From the NCBI GenBank assembly GCA_016871535.1, contig VHCZ01000038.1, positions 1 through 35,344 of the forward strand: DNA of 35,344 nt. The letters run 5' to 3'. Positions 5,097-35,344 of the stretch are shown piece by piece (the stretch's first letter is position 1; each line of letters starts with the position of its first letter). The position numbers were made by a program, and so were the translations under genes. The stretch comes from Verrucomicrobiota bacterium. Lineage in GTDB: Bacteria > Verrucomicrobiota > Verrucomicrobiia > Limisphaerales > SIBE01. The notes under the pieces were generated by a model, which did no database searches, was not told the origin of the DNA, and saw nothing but the letters and a program-made list of their open reading frames with translations.

Positions 5097-7787
5097 TCAC
5101 CGCTCCCTGGACAGCCGTCTCAGCAATTCATTGGCCACGGGCCGCGAGGGTTGGGCCTCAGCCAGCCGCTGCAACAGCCAGCGCGCCTCATCCGGTTGGG
5201 TCTTCGCTTGTTGCACCGCGATGGTCAGACAACGAGCGTACGCGGTCGAGAATTGGTCGCTGAGGCGGCAGCTTTCGAGGTAAGTGTCGAGTGCGCTCGC
5301 TAGCCGTCCTGCGGTTTCCTCGGCCAGCCCGCGCAGATAAACGTCGCGCGCCTGGATGAATTTCTCCAGTCGAAGGAGGAAGGTCTGATTTGCGTCCTCT
5401 CCAGCGCTTTCGATGAGTTCTCTTGGATTGCCCCGGACACGGTCCAGCCAACGGAAAAGCAGCCGGTGCGGCGCTTGGTTCCGCCGATACGCGAAATGCG
5501 GCGCGCGCAGAATGACGACCGGTTGGTCGTCCGTGTTCAAGGCGGCGCCTTGGGAAAATTCCCGCAGCGCGCTGGGTCCCGCGAGGAAACACCCGAAGAG
5601 ATGCAGGGCATCCGGCAAACCCAGGCTCTTGAGTTCTTGAATCAGGTTGGGATCGCGGACGCGGTTCTCGAACCAACCGGTGGAATCCACAGTCGCTTCG
5701 TCCATGGCGATGAGGCCCAGCACGGGCGTATCGACGTTGAACCGCAGCAGAAAAGCCCGGGCGTCGGGAAACACTTCCAGGCAAGTGCGAACGATGACTT
5801 GCAGCATGGCCTCATCGAGTTGAAACAGCGGCAGCCACTGGCAAAAAACTCCGTCCGGCGCCAGGCGCTGGCGCATCGCTTGAAAATGTTCCCGCGTGTA
5901 GAGCGCCCCCGCGCCGTCCCGTGCCGGATGAAAAAGGTCGGCCACGATCACGTCATACTGCTCGCGGGATGCGCGGACGAACCGGCGCGCGTCCGCCACG
6001 CGCACGTTCAGGCCGGGCCGAAGGCGGTTGTGCGGTGCAAAGTGATCCAAGACGTGAGGAATCTCAGGAATCAGTTCGACGCCGTCCGCCGCTAAATCGG
6101 CATACGGCCCGGCTGCGGCAAAAGTGATCCCTGTGCCCAGGCCAAGAAACAAAGCGCGCTTTGGATTCGGGTGCAGCAGGAGCGGAATGTGGGCATGGCG
6201 TCGCGCCGCGTCCGCCGCACCGGTGCCGCCCATCGTGAAGCGATTGTTGACCAGCAAACTCCGATGGCCGTCGAAGTGCTCGACCACCGCGATCGAATCC
6301 ATCACGCCTTCTCGATATTCGAGGATTTTGCCGCCCGGCGGCGCTTGAACGATCTGCAGCCGGCGCGGAAGCGCAACCATCAACACCAGCGGCAAAATCA
6401 GAAGCATCCAGGCTCGACCCGAACGTTTCGGCAGAAGCGCGACGTACGCGCCGGACAGGGACACGAAGCTCCATTTGGCCCCCAGGGCAGGCAGCAACAT
6501 AACTCCGAATATGAGCGGCGCCAGCGCGCTGCCCAAAGTGTTTAGAGCCACAGCACGGCCGACGCCATCGCGCTCGCGCTTGCTGGATTGAACGAGATGG
6601 CTGAACATCGCGCCCATCAGGATCGTGGGCAAACCAAAGACCAAAGCGGCGACCACGGCTTCCGCGGCAAATCCTCCGGCCAACGTGTCACCTAAGCTGG
6701 TTCGACAGAAAACGTAGATTTTCTGCGCCCCGGTGAGAACCCAGGCGCCAAGCAGACAACTCGTGGAAAGGCCGATCAGGAGCAACGGCCGGAGTCGGGT
6801 TGTCGAAGTTCGATTGCCGAAGCGATGGTAGATACTGGCGCCGATCGAGGTGCCGAGAAGGTAAACCGACAACGCCGCGGCAAAACTGTAAATCGTGTTC
6901 TCCAGCACTTCAGCCATCACACGCACCCCGAGGACTTCGTATCCAATGCCCAACAGGCCGGTGGCGAATAAGGTCAGGTCCAAACCCTGGCCCTTACGAA
7001 TCTGCTCATGCCCCGTGAACCAGGTAGGGCGAGTCCGTCCCGGCGAGCCGCGCGACATGCTTGGCGCACGTCCAGGGCGGCTCGCTGGGGACAGGCTCGC
7101 CTTGCCTTGAGGCTCAAGTGAAGGAGGCCGCTGTTGCTCTTGAGTAGTTGAAACAAGAACTCGCCGTTGGCTTCGCGCCTCCACGATCAACATCACCACG
7201 CCGCAGAGCAGATTCAGCCCGGCCAAAGCGAAAAGCGACTTCGTGAAACCGAGCGATGGCACCAGGATGAACGTGCTGGCCAAGGTGCCCGCCACCGCGC
7301 CCAGCGTGTTGAGTGAATAAAGCACGGCAATGCACCGGCCATCGGCCATCCACGGGGACGCGAATCGTTCCATTGCGGGCAGCGTCGCTCCCATCGAAAT
7401 CGTTGCGGGAAGCAGCGCAAGAAAAGGGACTGCAAAGGCCGAGAACCAATGCCGTGCTGCGGAAGGGGCCAGTCCTATCAGACTCAACGCAAAATCGTTC
7501 GCGAGCGGCAACAGCGCCGTCAACAACAGTCCCCAGACTCCAATGACTATTTCGAGCGCGGCATACCAGCGCCCAGGGCGGGCGCTCCTTCCGATTGCGC
7601 CATCCAGCCTCCAAGCGCCCAGGGCCAGGCCGCCGAAGAACGCCGCTACCACGGCGAGCACCGCAGGCATTTCGTGCCCAAGGCCGATCCCGAACTGGCG
7701 AGACCAAATCATCTGGCAGCCGAGTCCACCGAGACCGGAGAGGAAGAAAACCGTGTAAACCGTCCGCCGTTGGAGTTTAGGCGTCAT
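5097..7787 (-). CDS. Fused MFS-like membrane protein / spermidine synthase-like protein
   Basis: A protein of about 896 aa. The first 400 or so residues hold many hydrophobic segments (FFLSGLGGLGCQMIWSRQ, GHEMPAVLAVVAAFFGGLALG, ATISMGATLPAME) typical of the membrane half of fused spermidine synthases. From about residue 482 (GKILEYREGVMDSIAVVEH) a PABS-type aminopropyltransferase-like Rossmann domain follows, with LFLGLGTGITFAAAG near 540 and DVIVADLFHP near 617. An alpha-helical tail (residues about 780-896) resembles TPR-like helices. The family is an inner-membrane protein, but the substrate is rarely known and polyamine synthesis is not assured. The ATG at 7785-7787 (MTPKLQRR) is preferred over an upstream GTG/ATG because the first membrane segment follows directly. 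Residues about 228-255 are encoded by an 84-bp dispersed repeat inserted in frame between two membrane segments. Confidence 0.85.
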   Translation of the reverse strand: MTPKLQRRTVYTVFFLSGLGGLGCQMIWSRQFGIGLGHEMPAVLAVVAAFFGGLALGAWRLDGAIGRSARPGRWYAALEIVIGVWGLLLTALLPLANDFALSLIGLAPSAARHWFSAFAVPFLALLPATISMGATLPAMERFASPWMADGRCIAVLYSLNTLGAVAGTLASTFILVPSLGFTKSLFALAGLNLLCGVVMLIVEARSQRRVLVSTTQEQQRPPSLEPQGKASLSPASRPGRAPSMSRGSPGRTRPTWFTGHEQIRKGQGLDLTLFATGLLGIGYEVLGVRVMAEVLENTIYSFAAALSVYLLGTSIGASIYHRFGNRTSTTRLRPLLLIGLSTSCLLGAWVLTGAQKIYVFCRTSLGDTLAGGFAAEAVVAALVFGLPTILMGAMFSHLVQSSKRERDGVGRAVALNTLGSALAPLIFGVMLLPALGAKWSFVSLSGAYVALLPKRSGRAWMLLILPLVLMVALPRRLQIVQAPPGGKILEYREGVMDSIAVVEHFDGHRSLLVNNRFTMGGTGAADAARRHAHIPLLLHPNPKRALFLGLGTGITFAAAGPYADLAADGVELIPEIPHVLDHFAPHNRLRPGLNVRVADARRFVRASREQYDVIVADLFHPARDGAGALYTREHFQAMRQRLAPDGVFCQWLPLFQLDEAMLQVIVRTCLEVFPDARAFLLRFNVDTPVLGLIAMDEATVDSTGWFENRVRDPNLIQELKSLGLPDALHLFGCFLAGPSALREFSQGAALNTDDQPVVILRAPHFAYRRNQAPHRLLFRWLDRVRGNPRELIESAGEDANQTFLLRLEKFIQARDVYLRGLAEETAGRLASALDTYLESCRLSDQFSTAYARCLTIAVQQAKTQPDEARWLLQRLAEAQPSRPVANELLRRLSRER
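7023..7106 (+). repeat. 84-bp GGTAGGGC palindromic element, copy A (inside a gene)
   Basis: It begins GGTAGGGCGAG and ends CTCGCCTTGCC, its near inverted repeat, with inner arms GCGAGCCG and CGGCTCGC. Copies of the same 84-bp length lie at 28464-28547 (opposite orientation) and 35230-35313. This copy lies within the spermidine-synthase-like gene and adds exactly 28 codons with no stop, producing a low-complexity Ser/Pro/Arg/Gly-rich linker between membrane segments. Confidence 0.85.
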
Positions 7788-8213
7788 CGAGAACTGGAGA
7801 GGGAGAAATCCGGGCGCCCGAAAGACGCGGACCAACACCGTGCGGCGCGCGGAACTAACCACGGATTACACGGATCATACGGATAGGAGCGAAGGAACGA
7901 ACTCGTGTATCCATGTTCATCCGTTGCCTCCACAAGTTGGCGGTGAAGCGTAGCTATACAGATTTTCAATCTGCCGTATCGCCGACTTGTAGTCGGCTGC
8001 GCGACAAACTCGCCCGACCGCACCGGATTGGCCGGCGTGCCGCGGATTCCAAATCCGCGATACGGCAGAGTGCAACTCTGCGCTACGTGGACGGCGATCA
8101 CCGACAACTCGTGGATGCACTGGTGTTCATCCGTGGCCGAACCTTGAACTCGAAACCTGGAACCTCGAACCTCGCCCCTGGGCGGCCTGGGCGGATACCC
8201 CATTTCTCGCAGC
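7788..8213. other. Intergenic region made mostly of repeats
   Basis: No gene is supported here. From 7858 it holds an ATCCGTG-type heptamer repeat (ACCACGGATTACACGGAT) and from 7949 a four-hairpin element. Near 8140-8180 there is a run of GAAC-CT-like units (TTGAACTCGAAACCTGG, AACCTCGAACC). The flanking genes diverge from this region, so both must be promoted from within or beside repeat DNA. Confidence 0.6.
7949..8087. repeat. Four-hairpin element, copy 1
   Basis: Order: outer CGTAGC; hairpin CAGATT-ttc-AATCTG; GTATCG; hairpin GCCGACT-tgt-AGTCGGC; a variable spacer; hairpin GCGGATT-cca-AATCCGC; CGATACGG; hairpin GCAGAGT-gca-ACTCTGC; outer GCTACG. The outer hexamers and the GTATCG/CGATAC pairs are complementary, so the whole unit can also close into one long stem. 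Further copies lie at 20827-20962 and 33297-33413. It sits between divergent genes. Confidence 0.85.
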
Positions 8214-8249: not shown

Positions 8250-9182
8250 ATGCAGTTTATCCGCGACATCTACGCCGCCAAGCAAGCCAGCAATCGCCCG
8301 GTGATTTCCTTTGAATTCTTTCCGCCGAAAACGGAGGAAGGCGACCGGAACCTGCTGGAGAAAACCATCCCTGCGTTGAAACAACTTCAACCCGATTTCT
8401 GCTCGGTCACGTACGGCGCCGGCGGCAGCACGCGGGAGAAGACGTTGATGATCGTGGACCGCATTCAGCGGACCCACGGGATCACGGGCATGGCCCATTT
8501 GACCTGCGTCGGCTCGACCAGCCAGCAAATCGGCGAAGCGCTGGAGCAGGCCCGAGCGCTTGGAATCAAGAACATCCTGGCCTTGCGCGGCGATCCGCCC
8601 GGCGGCATGGGCGAATTCAAGAAAACTGAAGGCGGCTTCGAGTTTTCGTATCAACTGGTCCAGTTCATCCGGCAAACGGGCGGCTTTTCCATCGGCACGG
8701 CGGGGTTTCCGGAAGGCCACATCGCCTGCAAGGAAGGCAAGCAGGTCGATTGGGAGCGATTGAAAGCCAAGATCGATTGCGGCGCCGACTTTGTTATCAC
8801 CCAACTTTTCTTCGACAACGCGGACTTCTTTGTCTTCCGCGAATACATGGTGAAGAAGCTCGGCGTGACGGTCTCCATTACGCCCGGCATTCTGCCCATC
8901 CTGAGCGCCGCCCAGGTGAAGCGGTTTACGGAGATGTGCGGCGCGCGCATGCCGGCGCCGCTGCTCGCGCGGCTGGAGCCTTTGCGGGACAATGACGAGG
9001 CGGCGACCGAGTTTGGGATCGAGTACGCGACGAGACAGTGCGAAGAACTCCTGCGCGAAGGCGTGCCTGGGCTTCACATTTACACGTTGAATAAAGCTCG
9101 CTCCGCGACGCAAGTGCTGAAAAACTTGGGCCTGGCGTATCAAGTGGCTCGATCGCGCCTGCCAACCGGCGCAGCTTACTGA
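8250..9182 (+). CDS. metF: 5,10-methylenetetrahydrofolate reductase
   Basis: A 310-aa cytosolic flavoprotein of the MetF family, which reduces 5,10-methylene-THF to 5-methyl-THF with NAD(P)H to supply methyl groups for methionine synthesis. Family motifs are clear: ISFEFFPPKTEEG near the N-terminus, VTYGAGGSTREKT, HLTCVGST, NILALRGDPPGG, DFVITQLFFDNADF, and ITPGILPILS. The start at 8250 (MQFIRDIY) is chosen because a -10 box ends 7 nt upstream; ATG 8241 would add three residues. E. coli MetF has 296 residues and usually ends soon after the LKNLGL-like helix; here 15 or so extra residues lead to a stop codon (TGA 9180-9182) supplied by the inserted MITE, so the native C-terminus has probably been altered. 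Confidence 0.96.
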   Translation: MQFIRDIYAAKQASNRPVISFEFFPPKTEEGDRNLLEKTIPALKQLQPDFCSVTYGAGGSTREKTLMIVDRIQRTHGITGMAHLTCVGSTSQQIGEALEQARALGIKNILALRGDPPGGMGEFKKTEGGFEFSYQLVQFIRQTGGFSIGTAGFPEGHIACKEGKQVDWERLKAKIDCGADFVITQLFFDNADFFVFREYMVKKLGVTVSITPGILPILSAAQVKRFTEMCGARMPAPLLARLEPLRDNDEAATEFGIEYATRQCEELLREGVPGLHIYTLNKARSATQVLKNLGLAYQVARSRLPTGAAY

Positions 9183-9445
9183 TCAGACCGCGGGATAGAA
9201 TACACTTTGCCAGGAGGGATTTTGGCCAGCCGCGAGGAGCGCGCGAGGCGGTGTATCCCTGCGATCCACAACGAGCGAGCGACGAAGCGGCTGGCCAAAA
9301 GACCCCTGGCCCTGCGGGTTGCGCCGCATTTGGGCTCTGGCTTCGTTGCTCCTCAGTCGAAGAATCCACCAGGGATATTCTCCTTCGTCGCGCCTGAGCC
9401 CAAATGCGACGCAACAAAGTGTATTCTATCCCACGGTCTGATCAG
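9179..9445 (+). mobile_element. MITE copy 1, 31-bp terminal inverted repeats, TA duplication
   Basis: A 267-bp element bounded by TA (9177-9178 and 9446-9447). Its ends are inverted repeats of 31 bp with one mismatch, beginning CTGATCAGACCG and ending ATAGAATACACTTTG. The interior carries two large inverted repeats (TTTTGGCCAGC/GCTGGCCAAAA and GCATTTGGGCT/AGCCCAAATGC) and no transposase. A second copy in opposite orientation lies at 23331-23602. The TA duplication and size fit a non-autonomous IS630/Tc1-mariner-type MITE. It supplies the metF stop codon, and the A of its right-hand TA is the first base of the next gene's ATG. Confidence 0.92.
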
Positions 9446-9446
9446 T

Positions 9447-10538
9447 ATGAATCCCTCCGACACGGCTTTCTACGTCACGGGCGGCACGCTGCGGCACGAC
9501 GCGGCGTCGTATGTGGACCGCAAGGCGGACAAGGAATTGCTCGAAGGCCTCGTCAACAGCGAGTTTTGCTACGTGCTCACGTCCCGGCAAATGGGGAAAA
9601 GCTCCATCATGGTGCGCACGGCCAACAAGCTTCGCGCCGGCGGCTTCAAGGTTGTGGTGCTGGACCTCACGGCCATCGGCCAAAATCTGACGCCGGAACA
9701 ATGGTACGATGGTTTGCTGATGCGGCTGGGACGGCAATTGGGCCTGGAACAACAACTGGAGGATTTCTGGAGCACGCGCGACCGCGTCGGCGCCGTGCAA
9801 CGGTTCATGACCGCGATTCATGACGTCGCGCTCGCGACCCTCGCCGGCCCGCTGGTGATTTTCGTGGATGAAATCGACATCGTGCACAGCCTGCCGTTTG
9901 CCACGGACGAATTCTTTGCCGCGATTCGCGAGTGCTACAACCGCCGCGTGGAAGATCCCGCCTTCCAGCGCGTGACCTTTTGTTTGCTCGGGGTCGCGAC
10001 GCCTTCGGAGCTGATTCGCAATCCGCACACCACGCCGTTCAACATCGGCCACCGCATTGAACTCACGGATTTCACCGAGACGGAGGCCGCGCCCCTGGCT
10101 CAGCGGTTGGATGCAGACTCCGGCCAGGCCCAGGCTTATCTCAAGCGCATTCTTTTCTGGACGAACGGCCATCCCTATTTGACCCAGCGCTTGTGCCGTG
10201 CCGTTTTCGAGGAGAAACCCAAACTCAGGCTGACGCTGCAGGACGCGACACCGCTGCAATGCATCGACGATCTTTGCGAACGGCTCTTTCTCTCGCCGCG
10301 GGCGCGCGAGCAGGATGACAATCTGCTCTTCGTTCGGGAACGCATCCTGCGCGTGGAAGTCGATCTCGCCAAGCTGTTGAATCTTTACGAGCAGGTGCAC
10401 CACGAAAACCTGATTCCGGACGACGAAGCTAACGAATATATCAATCAACTGCGGCTCTCCGGCATCATCGCGGCCGACTCGGGCCGATTGAAAGTGCGCA
10501 ACCGAATTTACCGCGAGGTCTTTGATCCACAGTGCTAA
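9447..10538 (+). CDS. AAA_35-type P-loop ATPase, probably lacking a C-terminal effector domain
   Basis: A 363-aa protein of the AAA-like (PF14516, AAA_35) group. Near the N-terminus is YVDRKADKELLEGL, then the P-loop-like SRQMGKSSIMVR, the Walker B VIFVDEIDIV, the HRIELTDFTETEA segment, and the helical NGHPYLTQRLCRAV. A winged-helix-like end follows with the family signature RNRIYREVFD. In relatives this signature is often followed by WD40, TPR or other effector domains; here translation stops three residues later, so the gene is either a short form or truncated. The function is unknown; such ATPases are thought to belong to signalling or conflict systems. The frame is open upstream into the MITE (a TTG at 9207), but ATG 9447 gives the family N-terminus. 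No ribosome-binding site is visible, since everything upstream is MITE. Confidence 0.8.
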   Translation: MNPSDTAFYVTGGTLRHDAASYVDRKADKELLEGLVNSEFCYVLTSRQMGKSSIMVRTANKLRAGGFKVVVLDLTAIGQNLTPEQWYDGLLMRLGRQLGLEQQLEDFWSTRDRVGAVQRFMTAIHDVALATLAGPLVIFVDEIDIVHSLPFATDEFFAAIRECYNRRVEDPAFQRVTFCLLGVATPSELIRNPHTTPFNIGHRIELTDFTETEAAPLAQRLDADSGQAQAYLKRILFWTNGHPYLTQRLCRAVFEEKPKLRLTLQDATPLQCIDDLCERLFLSPRAREQDDNLLFVRERILRVEVDLAKLLNLYEQVHHENLIPDDEANEYINQLRLSGIIAADSGRLKVRNRIYREVFDPQC

Positions 10539-23203: not shown

Positions 23204-23330
23204 TACGCGAAGCCATCGAGGAACGCCGTTGGGAAGAAGTGGACCCGCAAACCGTCCGTGTGGCCCTGGCGGTGGAAAGATGCGCGGAAATTTTGGATCG
23301 GGGGAGAACCGAAGTGCTGGCGAACCAGTA
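23204..23330 (+). pseudogene. Detached 3' end of the M28 peptidase gene
   Basis: After the AGGGA repeat, the frame reads REAIEERRWEEVDPQTV, then RVALAVERCAEILDRGR, then TEVLANQ. This fits the last helices of the GCPII/TfR dimerisation domain. The native stop was TAA: its T and A are 23329-23330 and its last A is now 23605, on the far side of the second MITE. No start codon or ribosome-binding site serves this piece, so it is not expected to be translated. Confidence 0.78.
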
Positions 23331-23602
23331 CTGATCAGACCGTGGGATAGAATACACTTTGTTGCGTCGCATTTGGGCTCTGGCTCAGGCGCGACGAAGG
23401 AGAATGTCCCTGGTGGATCTTCGACTGAGGAGCAACGAAGCCAGATCCCAAATGCGACGCAACCCGCAGGGCCAGGGGTCTTTTGGCCCGCCGCTTCGTC
23501 GCTCGCTCGTTGTGGATCGCAGGGATACACCGCCTCGCGCGCTCCTCGCCGCTGGCCAAAATCCCTCCTGGCAAAGTGTATTCTATCCCACGGTCTGATC
23601 AG
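23331..23602 (-). mobile_element. MITE copy 2, perfect 31-bp terminal inverted repeats, TA duplication
   Basis: A 272-bp element flanked by TA on both sides (23329-23330, 23603-23604). Its 31-bp ends begin CTGATCAGACCG and match each other perfectly. The interior is the reverse complement of the copy at 9179-9445, with few differences and a few extra bases. It sits exactly in the former TAA stop codon of the M28 peptidase gene; reading across the junction gives TAC TGA, so a stop reappears one codon later. Confidence 0.92.
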
Positions 23603-23651
23603 TAAGCAATGGCGGCGATGTTTCAACAGGAGGGAAGAGAGGCGCCAGAGT

Positions 23652-32738: not shown

Positions 32739-35210
32739 TCATTCGTTGATGCGCCCGGACCGGAAATGGCGCTGGATTTCTTTCCGGATCAACACGCGGT
32801 CGTAAATGGCGACTTCGTCAATCTTGCCCTCGAATGAGGAATCCCGTGCTTGCCACTCGCCGCCGATGCTGAGTTCCGGCGCGGTGGCGGCGTCTGGAAT
32901 CCGGGTGACGGCCGAGATTTCAGGAGCCAGGCTGCCGTTCAAGAAAACGGAGACGTTCTGGCGATCCCGCACGAACACGAGATGATTCCACGTCTTCAAA
33001 GTCAGCGGCGTCGTACCGTGGGATTGGGTTTTCCAGCCGCGTTGATGCGCGAACTCGTGCGACTCGAACACCAGAGCGCCCTCCGGACCGTTCATCCGGG
33101 GAATGAGGATCTTGTCCGCGGAACTTGTCGGCGCGCCCTCGGCTCCGCGAGAGAAGAGAACGCCAGTGACGGAACGCACGTTGGCCGGCAGCCCGTTCCA
33201 GAACCACAATTCCACGGTGTAGCGATCTCCCAGCCCGTTCGAGCTCGCACGCAATCGGCCGCCCGCCAGATGCACGCAGCGGTTGAGGGTGGCGGACGCA
33301 GCGCAGATTTTGAATCTGCTGTATCGCCGACTTGTAGTCGGCAGGCCCTCGGGGAAACCCACGTGCGGCGGATTGAAAATCCGCGATACGGCAGAGTGCA
33401 ACTCTGCGCTACGGAACCCTGGCGCAGTTGGCCCCTCTAAGTAATAGGCAATGCCGGAGGCGCTTCCGCGTTCGACGTTCGGCGCGGTGCCGTCTTCATA
33501 GATCGCGTGGTTTCCATTTCCGCTCGAATCGAACGCGGTCGGGCCGTTGAATTCGCCCAGGCGCCAATACGCAATCGGCTTCGAGGAGAGCACGGCTTTG
33601 GCGTAGGTGTCGTGCGTCGCTCCGGCGCTGGTAGGGCGGCGCGGCCGCGCCGCCCTACCCGCATCATGTGCATTGGTCCGAGATGTGGCTTCATGGCGAT
33701 GGAGGCGCTCCAGGAGCTGCAAAACGGCGTCGGCGATCTTCGGTTCGGCTTCGACTTCCAGCGCCGCCGTGCGCGCGGGCCAGGCCGTGTATCCGCCCAA
33801 CGCGTGTTGCGCGGGCGGGGGAATGTAACCTTCCGAGCCGTTGGCCAGTTCAATAGTGAACGTGGTCGGAAAAGGGCTGAGTGCTTTGATTTTCAATCCG
33901 GTGATCGCGAAGACTTCATTCGGAATGGCGGCGATTCCCAGAGCGCCGATGCGAATGGCTTGCAGCTTGAGTTCGCGCACAGGATCTTCGTGAAGAAAGA
34001 TTTGTTCACGGGCGTAAACTTCAACCTGGTTGGTGGGCTTGCGGCCTTCCATCTTCGCCACGATTGCCCGCGCCCAGTCCAACCGCTCCTTATTCGGCGT
34101 CCGGCGCCGCAAGGTCAGCCTGGATTCCGCCATGGCAACGGGCGCCCAATCACGAAAGCGGATCTTCTGATACGCGGCGAACGCCGAGCGCGCGACTCCG
34201 TCTGCGTATTCATCGAGGTTCAGATTGCGCCGCGGCTTCCCATAATCCATCCACATTTGGTCGCCGCTCGTGCCTTGGGACATGATGCCAATGAAAGGTG
34301 GATCGACGCCCTGAGCCCCGATGAGATTCTTAATCTTCTCCGCAAAGCGTCCGTAATAATCGGCGGAGACGGGCGCGGCGCCGAAATAGTGCATCGAGTA
34401 ATTCGCCAGGAGCACGATGGGCTTTCCTTGAGGTGACTGGATTGCGACCACGGTCAGTCCGGGGTCCACAGGACCGGACGGCCCGAGGCAGTCCGGGTTT
34501 TCGTAACCCGGATGCATATTTGCGCGAACCGTTTTTCCGCCGAAGGGGTCGGTCCTGATTTTGTCCGGGCGAAAAATCCAACGGCGATTGTGCGTGTGCT
34601 CGACATCATCGACCACCGCCCAGCCGATGCGCGCCGGAGCGAGGTTTTTTGCCGCCGCCGCAATGGCCTGAGCGATCTTGCCCGGCAGCGTCCGAGTGTA
34701 CTCCGGATCGGGCGATGCGCCCAGACACCCCATGGCGGACGGCGCCGAATGCGTGTGCGTCGCGGAAACCAGCATGCGATCCTCGGCAATGCCGGTCAGG
34801 TCGCGGGCCTGGCGTTTGGCGACGTCAATCGAGTCGCGCGGCAGCATGCAGCTATCAATTACGGCGATGGCGACCCGGTTTGTGCCGTCGTCGAGCACCA
34901 GAGCGCGCGCGTGGAGCGGGTCGTTGGCTTTGCCGGCTTGCGCTTCCAGGAACCCGCCGTTGACGATCACAGGAAATTTGTCCGGTGTGATGTCGAGCGC
35001 GCTCGCGCCGGCCTTGAGGCGCAGGACGGGCTGGCGTCCGGGCGCGGACAGCGGATGGAACGCCAAGAGAACCCATGCCAGGACGAGGTTCCTGGAAAGG
35101 TGCCATGGCCACGGTGTCCTGCCCGCGGCGCATGAACCCACCCCTTCCCCTCCCAGGAGGGGCGAAGGGGTAGGTTGGCTCGTGGAAAGCTGCCTGGGCC
35201 TGATTAGCAT
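32739..35210 (-). CDS. Neutral ceramidase-like protein with C-terminal LamG domain, carrying several repeat inserts
   Basis: About 823 aa from ATG 35208-35210; the frame is open to an ATG at 35339, but that part is an 84-bp repeat. A hydrophobic export segment (RNLVLAWVLLAFHPLSA) precedes a neutral/alkaline non-lysosomal ceramidase N-terminal-type domain (LKAGASALDITP, VSATHTHSAPSAMG with likely zinc His, LLANYSMHYFGAAPVSADYYG, GIMSQGTSGDQM). The C-terminal third is a LamG/concanavalin-like domain (AYWRLGEFNGPTAFDSSGNG, YTVELWFWNG, WNHLVFVRDRQNVSVFLNG, GKIDEVAIYDRVL). Members occur in sugar- and lipid-degrading gene sets; the true substrate is open. Inside the frame lie a CCCACCCC hairpin (35137-35174), a 30-bp palindrome between the two domains (33630-33659) and a 117-bp four-hairpin element within LamG (33297-33413), none of which breaks translation. 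Confidence 0.82.
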   Translation of the reverse strand: MLIRPRQLSTSQPTPSPLLGGEGVGSCAAGRTPWPWHLSRNLVLAWVLLAFHPLSAPGRQPVLRLKAGASALDITPDKFPVIVNGGFLEAQAGKANDPLHARALVLDDGTNRVAIAVIDSCMLPRDSIDVAKRQARDLTGIAEDRMLVSATHTHSAPSAMGCLGASPDPEYTRTLPGKIAQAIAAAAKNLAPARIGWAVVDDVEHTHNRRWIFRPDKIRTDPFGGKTVRANMHPGYENPDCLGPSGPVDPGLTVVAIQSPQGKPIVLLANYSMHYFGAAPVSADYYGRFAEKIKNLIGAQGVDPPFIGIMSQGTSGDQMWMDYGKPRRNLNLDEYADGVARSAFAAYQKIRFRDWAPVAMAESRLTLRRRTPNKERLDWARAIVAKMEGRKPTNQVEVYAREQIFLHEDPVRELKLQAIRIGALGIAAIPNEVFAITGLKIKALSPFPTTFTIELANGSEGYIPPPAQHALGGYTAWPARTAALEVEAEPKIADAVLQLLERLHRHEATSRTNAHDAGRAARPRRPTSAGATHDTYAKAVLSSKPIAYWRLGEFNGPTAFDSSGNGNHAIYEDGTAPNVERGSASGIAYYLEGPTAPGFRSAELHSAVSRIFNPPHVGFPEGLPTTSRRYSRFKICAASATLNRCVHLAGGRLRASSNGLGDRYTVELWFWNGLPANVRSVTGVLFSRGAEGAPTSSADKILIPRMNGPEGALVFESHEFAHQRGWKTQSHGTTPLTLKTWNHLVFVRDRQNVSVFLNGSLAPEISAVTRIPDAATAPELSIGGEWQARDSSFEGKIDEVAIYDRVLIRKEIQRHFRSGRINE
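33297..33413. repeat. Four-hairpin element, copy 3 (inside the LamG domain)
   Basis: CGCAGC; GCAGATT-ttg-AATCTGC; GTATCG; GCCGACT-tgt-AGTCGGC; spacer; GCGGATT-gaa-AATCCGC; CGATACGG; GCAGAGT-gca-ACTCTGC; GCTACG. The length, 117 bp, is a multiple of three, unlike the two intergenic copies (139 and 136 bp). On the minus strand it encodes a peptide starting RSAELHSAVSRIFNPP inside the LamG domain. Confidence 0.87.
33630..33659. repeat. 30-bp perfect palindrome of the GGTAGGGC family
   Basis: GGTAGGGCGGCGCGG (33630-33644) is followed directly by its exact complement CCGCGCCGCCCTACC (33645-33659). Ten codons long, it lies in the linker between the ceramidase and LamG domains and encodes an Arg/Ala/Pro-rich stretch. 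It shares GGTAGGGC/GCCCTACC ends with the 84-bp element. Confidence 0.85.
35137..35174. repeat. CCCACCCC/GGGGTAGG inverted repeat
   Basis: CCCACCCCTTCCCCTCC pairs imperfectly with GGAGGGGCGAAGGGGTAGG. It is read in frame (PTPSPLLGGEGVG) ahead of the export segment of the ceramidase-like protein. Confidence 0.65.
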
Positions 35211-35229
35211 TCTCACACGCCATGAGCCC

Positions 35230-35313
35230 GGTAGGGCGAGTCCATCCCGGCGAGCCGCTCCACGCGCTTGGAACACGTCCGACTCGGCTCGCTGGGGACA
35301 GGCTCGCCCTACC
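35230..35313 (+). repeat. 84-bp GGTAGGGC palindromic element, copy C
   Basis: Begins GGTAGGGCGAG and ends CTCGCCCTACC, with inner GCGAGCCG and CGGCTCGC as in copy A; same length and orientation as copy A. It lies just upstream of the likely start of the ceramidase-like gene, in an open frame that continues into the gene. Confidence 0.85.
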
Positions 35314-35344
35314 GTCAGGTTCATGGAAAGCTTTCTCATAGTTC

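Follow-up and report, generated by a model that had tools for sequence, protein, structure and literature searches.

Probable in-frame insertion of a GTAG-REP-type element into a ceramidase-LamG gene of a groundwater-type Verrucomicrobia genome

We think it quite probable that an element of the GTAG-REP type was inserted in frame, in one lineage, into the gene for a ceramidase-LamG protein, that the protein kept its fold, and that a 54-bp insertion in the interdomain linker arose likewise. This reading rests on the identity of the repeat, its copy number, its absence from orthologues, the open reading frame and the predicted fold. The stretch examined (the window, 35,344 nucleotides) is contig C38 of a MAG of 6.67 Mb in 460 contigs. 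It comes from a groundwater-type Verrucomicrobia genome which is rich in dispersed short hairpin-rich repeats and whose closest relatives, in the same genus, are groundwater Verrucomicrobia MAGs.

The Ceramidase-LamG Gene

An open frame of 866 amino acids on the minus strand (32739–35339) specifies a neutral/alkaline ceramidase-type domain and a LamG domain. The latter matches Pfam profile Laminin_G_3 (PF13385) with 67.7 bits against a cut-off of 27.6. The ceramidase match (PF04734, E 3e-6) falls under the curated cut-off, and the top fold matches of the modelled protein are the neutral ceramidases of P. aeruginosa and human, 2zws and 4wgk (E ~1e-21, prob 1.00); a neutral/alkaline ceramidase catalytic domain is indicated weakly by Pfam and also by the fold search. 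Jelly-roll, lectin-like fold matches of the LamG part were set aside as reflecting a common shared fold. The AlphaFold2 model (58 sequences) has a pLDDT of 85.9 and a pTM of 0.88.

Two-domain relatives of the gene come from Verrucomicrobia, Planctomycetes and others; 80 orthologues were fetched and the 68 free of stop codons were compared. The invariant ceramidase motifs are retained in the host gene, and GC content by codon position displays a coding signal on either side of the LamG insert described below. Against a same-genus orthologue the dN/dS is ~0.08 in the ceramidase part and ~0.13 in LamG, where dS is saturated, both values being pairwise and spanning more than the branch after the insertion. 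Another same-genus orthologue, L083 (G002:C250, from the second same-genus genome), carries, in its ceramidase domain, an in-frame insert of its own of ~46 residues and of unrelated sequence.

The Four-Hairpin Family

The repeat consists of two inverted REP units with two hairpins each. In 23 aligned copies it mostly measures 135 bp from GTAG to CTACG and holds four 7-bp hairpins; the strong copies are nearly all of this length (136 bp with the leading C), giving a canonical 135–136 bp. GTAG begins 20 of the 23 aligned copies and is followed by a 7-bp stem, as is the case in GTAG-REPs, and most copies have GTAG/CTAC ends. Pairing is retained in 97.8% of cells, with 65 double-change cells compared to 23.6 in shuffles. 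An 835-kb sample contains 20 places scoring >100 bits, which extrapolates to ~160 genome-wide, and ~90 strong places are among those listed for the whole genome. As in GTAG-REPs the copies are numerous, mostly intergenic and arranged as inverted pairs, with few in clear genes. Within the order, 25 of the 58 genomes have matches to the element, and Rfam had no match in the window. Judged by its sequence features the element is a GTAG-tagged REP dimer. Its copies have on average 3.29 of six frames open, versus 1.40 in shuffles; given the kinship of the copies, and an element almost identical to its own reverse complement, this excess was not taken as a sign of coding selection.

The Insertion in LamG

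The preliminary description had placed a 117-bp copy of this element inside the LamG domain, and both its presence and its length were confirmed. The genic copy (a GTAG-type REP dimer, 33297–33413) has a spacer 19 bp shorter than that of the canonical 136-bp element, runs from CGTAGC to GCTGCG, and carries GCAG, not GTAG, at one end. DNA alignment with the same-genus orthologue showed that the 117 bp plus three bases constitute a clean insertion of net 120 bp, or 40 codons (33294–33413, minus strand): the empty site reads GGGTTTGCCACG, against GGGTTC-[120 bp]-GCCACC in the host gene. The insert is absent from all 68 stop-free orthologues compared and, together with the linker insert, is specific to this lineage. 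Its short spacer has no other occurrence in its own genome. Looked at as a MITE, the element has inverted ends; no clear target-site duplication was found at the insertion, only TTC/TCC.

In the orthologues the zone of insertion is a LamG loop of varying length. The LamG strands flanking the insert are modelled by AlphaFold2 with a pLDDT of ~86–97 and the insert is mostly below 50, hence the domain, the folding of which had been singled out beforehand as a point to check, is predicted to fold around a confident core, the insert forming a loop of low confidence. On this model the 40 residues probably form a disordered or floppy loop.

The Linker Insertion

The linker between the two domains is 18–19 residues long in 68 of 68 orthologues versus ~35 in the host gene. 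Alignment with the same-genus orthologue places a perfect 30-bp palindrome with GGTAGGGCG ends (33630–33659) within the 54-bp (18-residue) excess. Some 6e-5 such palindromes are expected by chance in the window. The palindrome had been reported in the preliminary description; orthologues lack the 18-residue insert which holds it. No second copy was detected in its own genome, allowing three mismatches, or in the genomes of 142 relatives, allowing two, and the palindrome therefore does not constitute a family. Its ends and left flank resemble the 84-bp family described below (weak local matches), and the palindrome is probably related to that element in degenerate form.

The 5' End of the Frame

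Two other elements are located near the 5' end of the open frame: an 84-bp inverted-repeat element (GGTAGGGCG...CGCCCTACC, 35230–35313) and a hairpin module (CCCACCCC...GGGG, ~35137–35170). Both had been thought to be part of the coding frame, an assignment which was not confirmed. Residue conservation of the protein starts at about residue 100, and the two elements are upstream of all conserved residues. C38 ends 5 nt past the ORF, inside a repeat, and its end (35043–35344) is overlapped over 302 nt, with 2 mismatches, by contig C277 (L081:1–302); the contigs were kept unmerged. One of the mismatches is within the 84-bp element and the other within the hairpin. Beyond the overlap C277 carries, immediately upstream, a divergent gene which from its sequence we name a dehydrogenase. 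The start of conservation and the C277 dehydrogenase together place both elements either in the gap between two divergent genes or right where the ORF begins. The 84-bp element would accordingly lie in the divergent intergenic region or a 5' leader, the hairpin probably in the 5' leader or start region, and both are probably untranslated. N-terminal REPs have often been judged non-coding in genes with GTAG-REPs (PMC3733652).

Three candidate starts were noted on the minus strand: ATG1 at the 5' end of the ORF, ATG44 (35208–35210) and GTG67 (35139–35141). Read on the minus strand the CCCACCCC hairpin yields the SD-like sequence GGGAGGGGAAGGG just before GTG67, and a signal-peptide-like segment comes after it, so that GTG67 is plausible as the true start.

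The 84-bp element is exactly 84 bp long in 19 of 22 sampled copies. The presence of ~400 first-look candidates in its own genome, and of stray matches only in relatives, suggests a recent burst. Elsewhere it can precede the CCCACCCC hairpin as a single composite, and the two at the 5' end of the ceramidase-LamG frame look like modules of one such repeat. The proposal of four repeat families in frame thus has to be reduced: a place in the coding sequence can be demonstrated for two of the four, the palindrome is not a family, and the 84-bp element and hairpin look like parts of one composite.

Frame-Keeping and Other Genes

It had been argued that the 117-bp genic copy is a multiple of three and that intergenic copies of 136 and 139 bp are not, as expected if only frame-keeping insertions survive. 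The three lengths are correct for CGTAGC...GCTACG boundaries, and the 117-bp copy does keep the frame. A canonical copy inserted in the same manner (136 + 3 bp) would break it, and survival of the frame-keeping version fits this. As proof of the general rule the lengths fail, there being one genic copy and a near-fixed intergenic length: since the strong copies are nearly all of one length, two intergenic values are no sample of free lengths, and the 84-bp element has a length divisible by three wherever it is sited, within or outside genes. Survival of frame-keeping insertions only, as a general rule, is plausible; the lengths 117, 136 and 139 are no test of it. The idea that the canonical 135 bp is itself divisible by three was given up as boundary-dependent; what matters is solely the net change to the gene. 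A codon-score frame test over the 835-kb sample gave 7 in frame and open, 2 in frame with a stop and 1 shifted, numbers which are small and no more than suggestive.

This sample contains 229 intervals of dispersed repeats, of which 75 fall in ORFs 150 or more codons long. Many of the 75 are close to 5' ends or belong to paralogous domains, and many "genic" copies obtained from ORF calling were rejected as 5'-end artefacts. A clear case in the interior of a gene is tilS (L134:2001–2114, G000:C3), where a dispersed repeat of 39 residues is in frame between the ATP-binding and C-terminal domains and is absent from 10 of 10 relatives compared. Candidates include a type I PKS in which the composite of 84-bp element and CCCACCCC hairpin is in frame between KS and AT (L071:1516–1690, G000:C78), a 920-aa spermine-synthase-like protein with an in-frame 84-bp copy at 7003–7123 of the window (ORF 5103–7862, minus strand), an FAD/Fe-S oxidoreductase and an MFS transporter. 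The ceramidase-LamG gene does not look special in this genome, as in-frame insertions look common. Given tilS and these candidates we lean towards the view that in-frame insertion of hairpin repeats is a frequent and ongoing source of new protein segments in the lineage. The window also holds a repeat of ~270 bp in two inverted copies 97–98% alike and 14 kb apart (9174–9447 and 23329–23607), one of which belongs to a family with ~17 matches in the 835-kb sample.

Origin of the Insertions

As we envisage it, a non-autonomous four-hairpin element of the GTAG-REP kind would have been copied, in a single lineage, into a pre-existing ceramidase-LamG gene. The genome has 13 Y1_Tnp (RAYT-like) matches, one of them near a 31-nt piece of the end of the 84-bp element. 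The four-hairpin element flanks none of the 13, contig ends restricting the view, and we therefore infer the transposition step, which would have been carried out in trans by a transposase of the Y1/RAYT type acting on single strands. The net 120 bp, stop-free in the frame of the gene, would have landed between two LamG strands, in a surface loop whose length already varied among orthologues, a site that would let the protein keep its fold with a 40-residue loop. A 54-bp insertion with its GGTAGGGCG-ended palindrome would have lengthened the interdomain linker in like manner. Presumably the gene is expressed, and purifying selection against frame-breaking insertions would allow frame-keeping ones to survive; those in variable loops and linkers would be tolerated and persist as peptide inserts.

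The same facts might be read differently. That the gene is a decaying pseudogene, in which repeats build up unselected and the frame stays open by chance, we hold to be quite unlikely. It would explain several repeat modules in a single gene, and in stop-poor, GC-rich sequence open frames come easily (the four-hairpin copies have 3.3 of 6 open); against this are an uninterrupted stretch of >860 codons, the GC signal by codon position to either side of the insert, dN/dS of ~0.1, invariant ceramidase motifs and a confident predicted fold. An error of assembly or binning, with another copy of the repeat as the source of an insert wrongly placed in the gene, seems very unlikely to us. Such errors might be looked for in a repeat-rich MAG of 460 contigs, with C38 ending in another repeat and overlapping C277 with 2 mismatches. 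However, orthologous in-frame sequence is found at both junctions, the short spacer of the genic copy is unique in the genome, and similar in-frame insertions occur in other genes.

It is also unlikely, if a little less so than decay of the gene, that the insertions are adaptive or domesticated, with the loop or the mRNA hairpins acting in binding, in regulation of translation or in transcript stability. A role for REPs as RNA elements affecting transcripts has been put forward (PMC3733652), hairpin pairing is kept across copies, and through the 5' hairpin GTG67 is preceded by a strong SD-like run of purines. But pairing is a family-wide trait of mobile REPs and not specific to this site, disorder is predicted for the insert, and at this locus it is not conserved in relatives. 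We favor insertion of a mobile element which the protein tolerates.

Relation to Known Systems

GTAG-REPs in frame within genes, some of them twice per gene, were described in 2013 and are abundant in the verrucomicrobium Opitutus terrae (PMC3733652). In-frame GTAG-REPs in bacterial genes are thus already known; the host, the element families and the orthologue-verified case are new. The present elements resemble those of PMC3733652 in that GTAG adjoins a short hairpin, the units form inverted dimers, and the copies are numerous and mostly intergenic, with some in frame in genes. They differ in that a four-hairpin composite of 136 bp gives rise to 40 residues, whereas the earlier inserts are mostly of 20–30 residues (up to 82 in clusters), and in that the search for a transposase gene with four-hairpin copies on its flanks was negative. 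The present family was not assigned to any of the 24 families of that work. As in Pseudomonas REPIN/RAYT systems (PMC3116915), paired inverted REPs would spread as a unit, and Y1 transposases are present in this genome; the four-hairpin unit is longer, however, and association of RAYT with the element was not seen here.

An older precedent is provided by the palindromic elements of Rickettsia (RPE) described by Ogata et al. (2000/2002; see PMC10969869), which measure ~100–150 bp and are translated in frame in unrelated genes, housekeeping genes included. The likeness is in-frame palindromic insertion in genes, and we claim no sequence relation; unlike the CGTC-tagged RPE-4 and RPE-6 of Rickettsia (PMC3733652) the elements here have GTAG ends and a host which its nearest named relatives place among the Verrucomicrobia. 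If our reading is correct, an orthologue-verified bacterial REP dimer has been turned into 40 codons of a protein with a predicted fold, and the genome holds many further candidates. Because same-genus genomes supply empty sites, the frequency with which selfish palindromes become protein could be counted site by site. If such insertion is frequent and ongoing, the lineage, with what would be an old order-wide four-hairpin family and a recent genome-specific burst of the 84-bp element, would offer a free-living counterpart to the protein-coding palindromes of Rickettsia.
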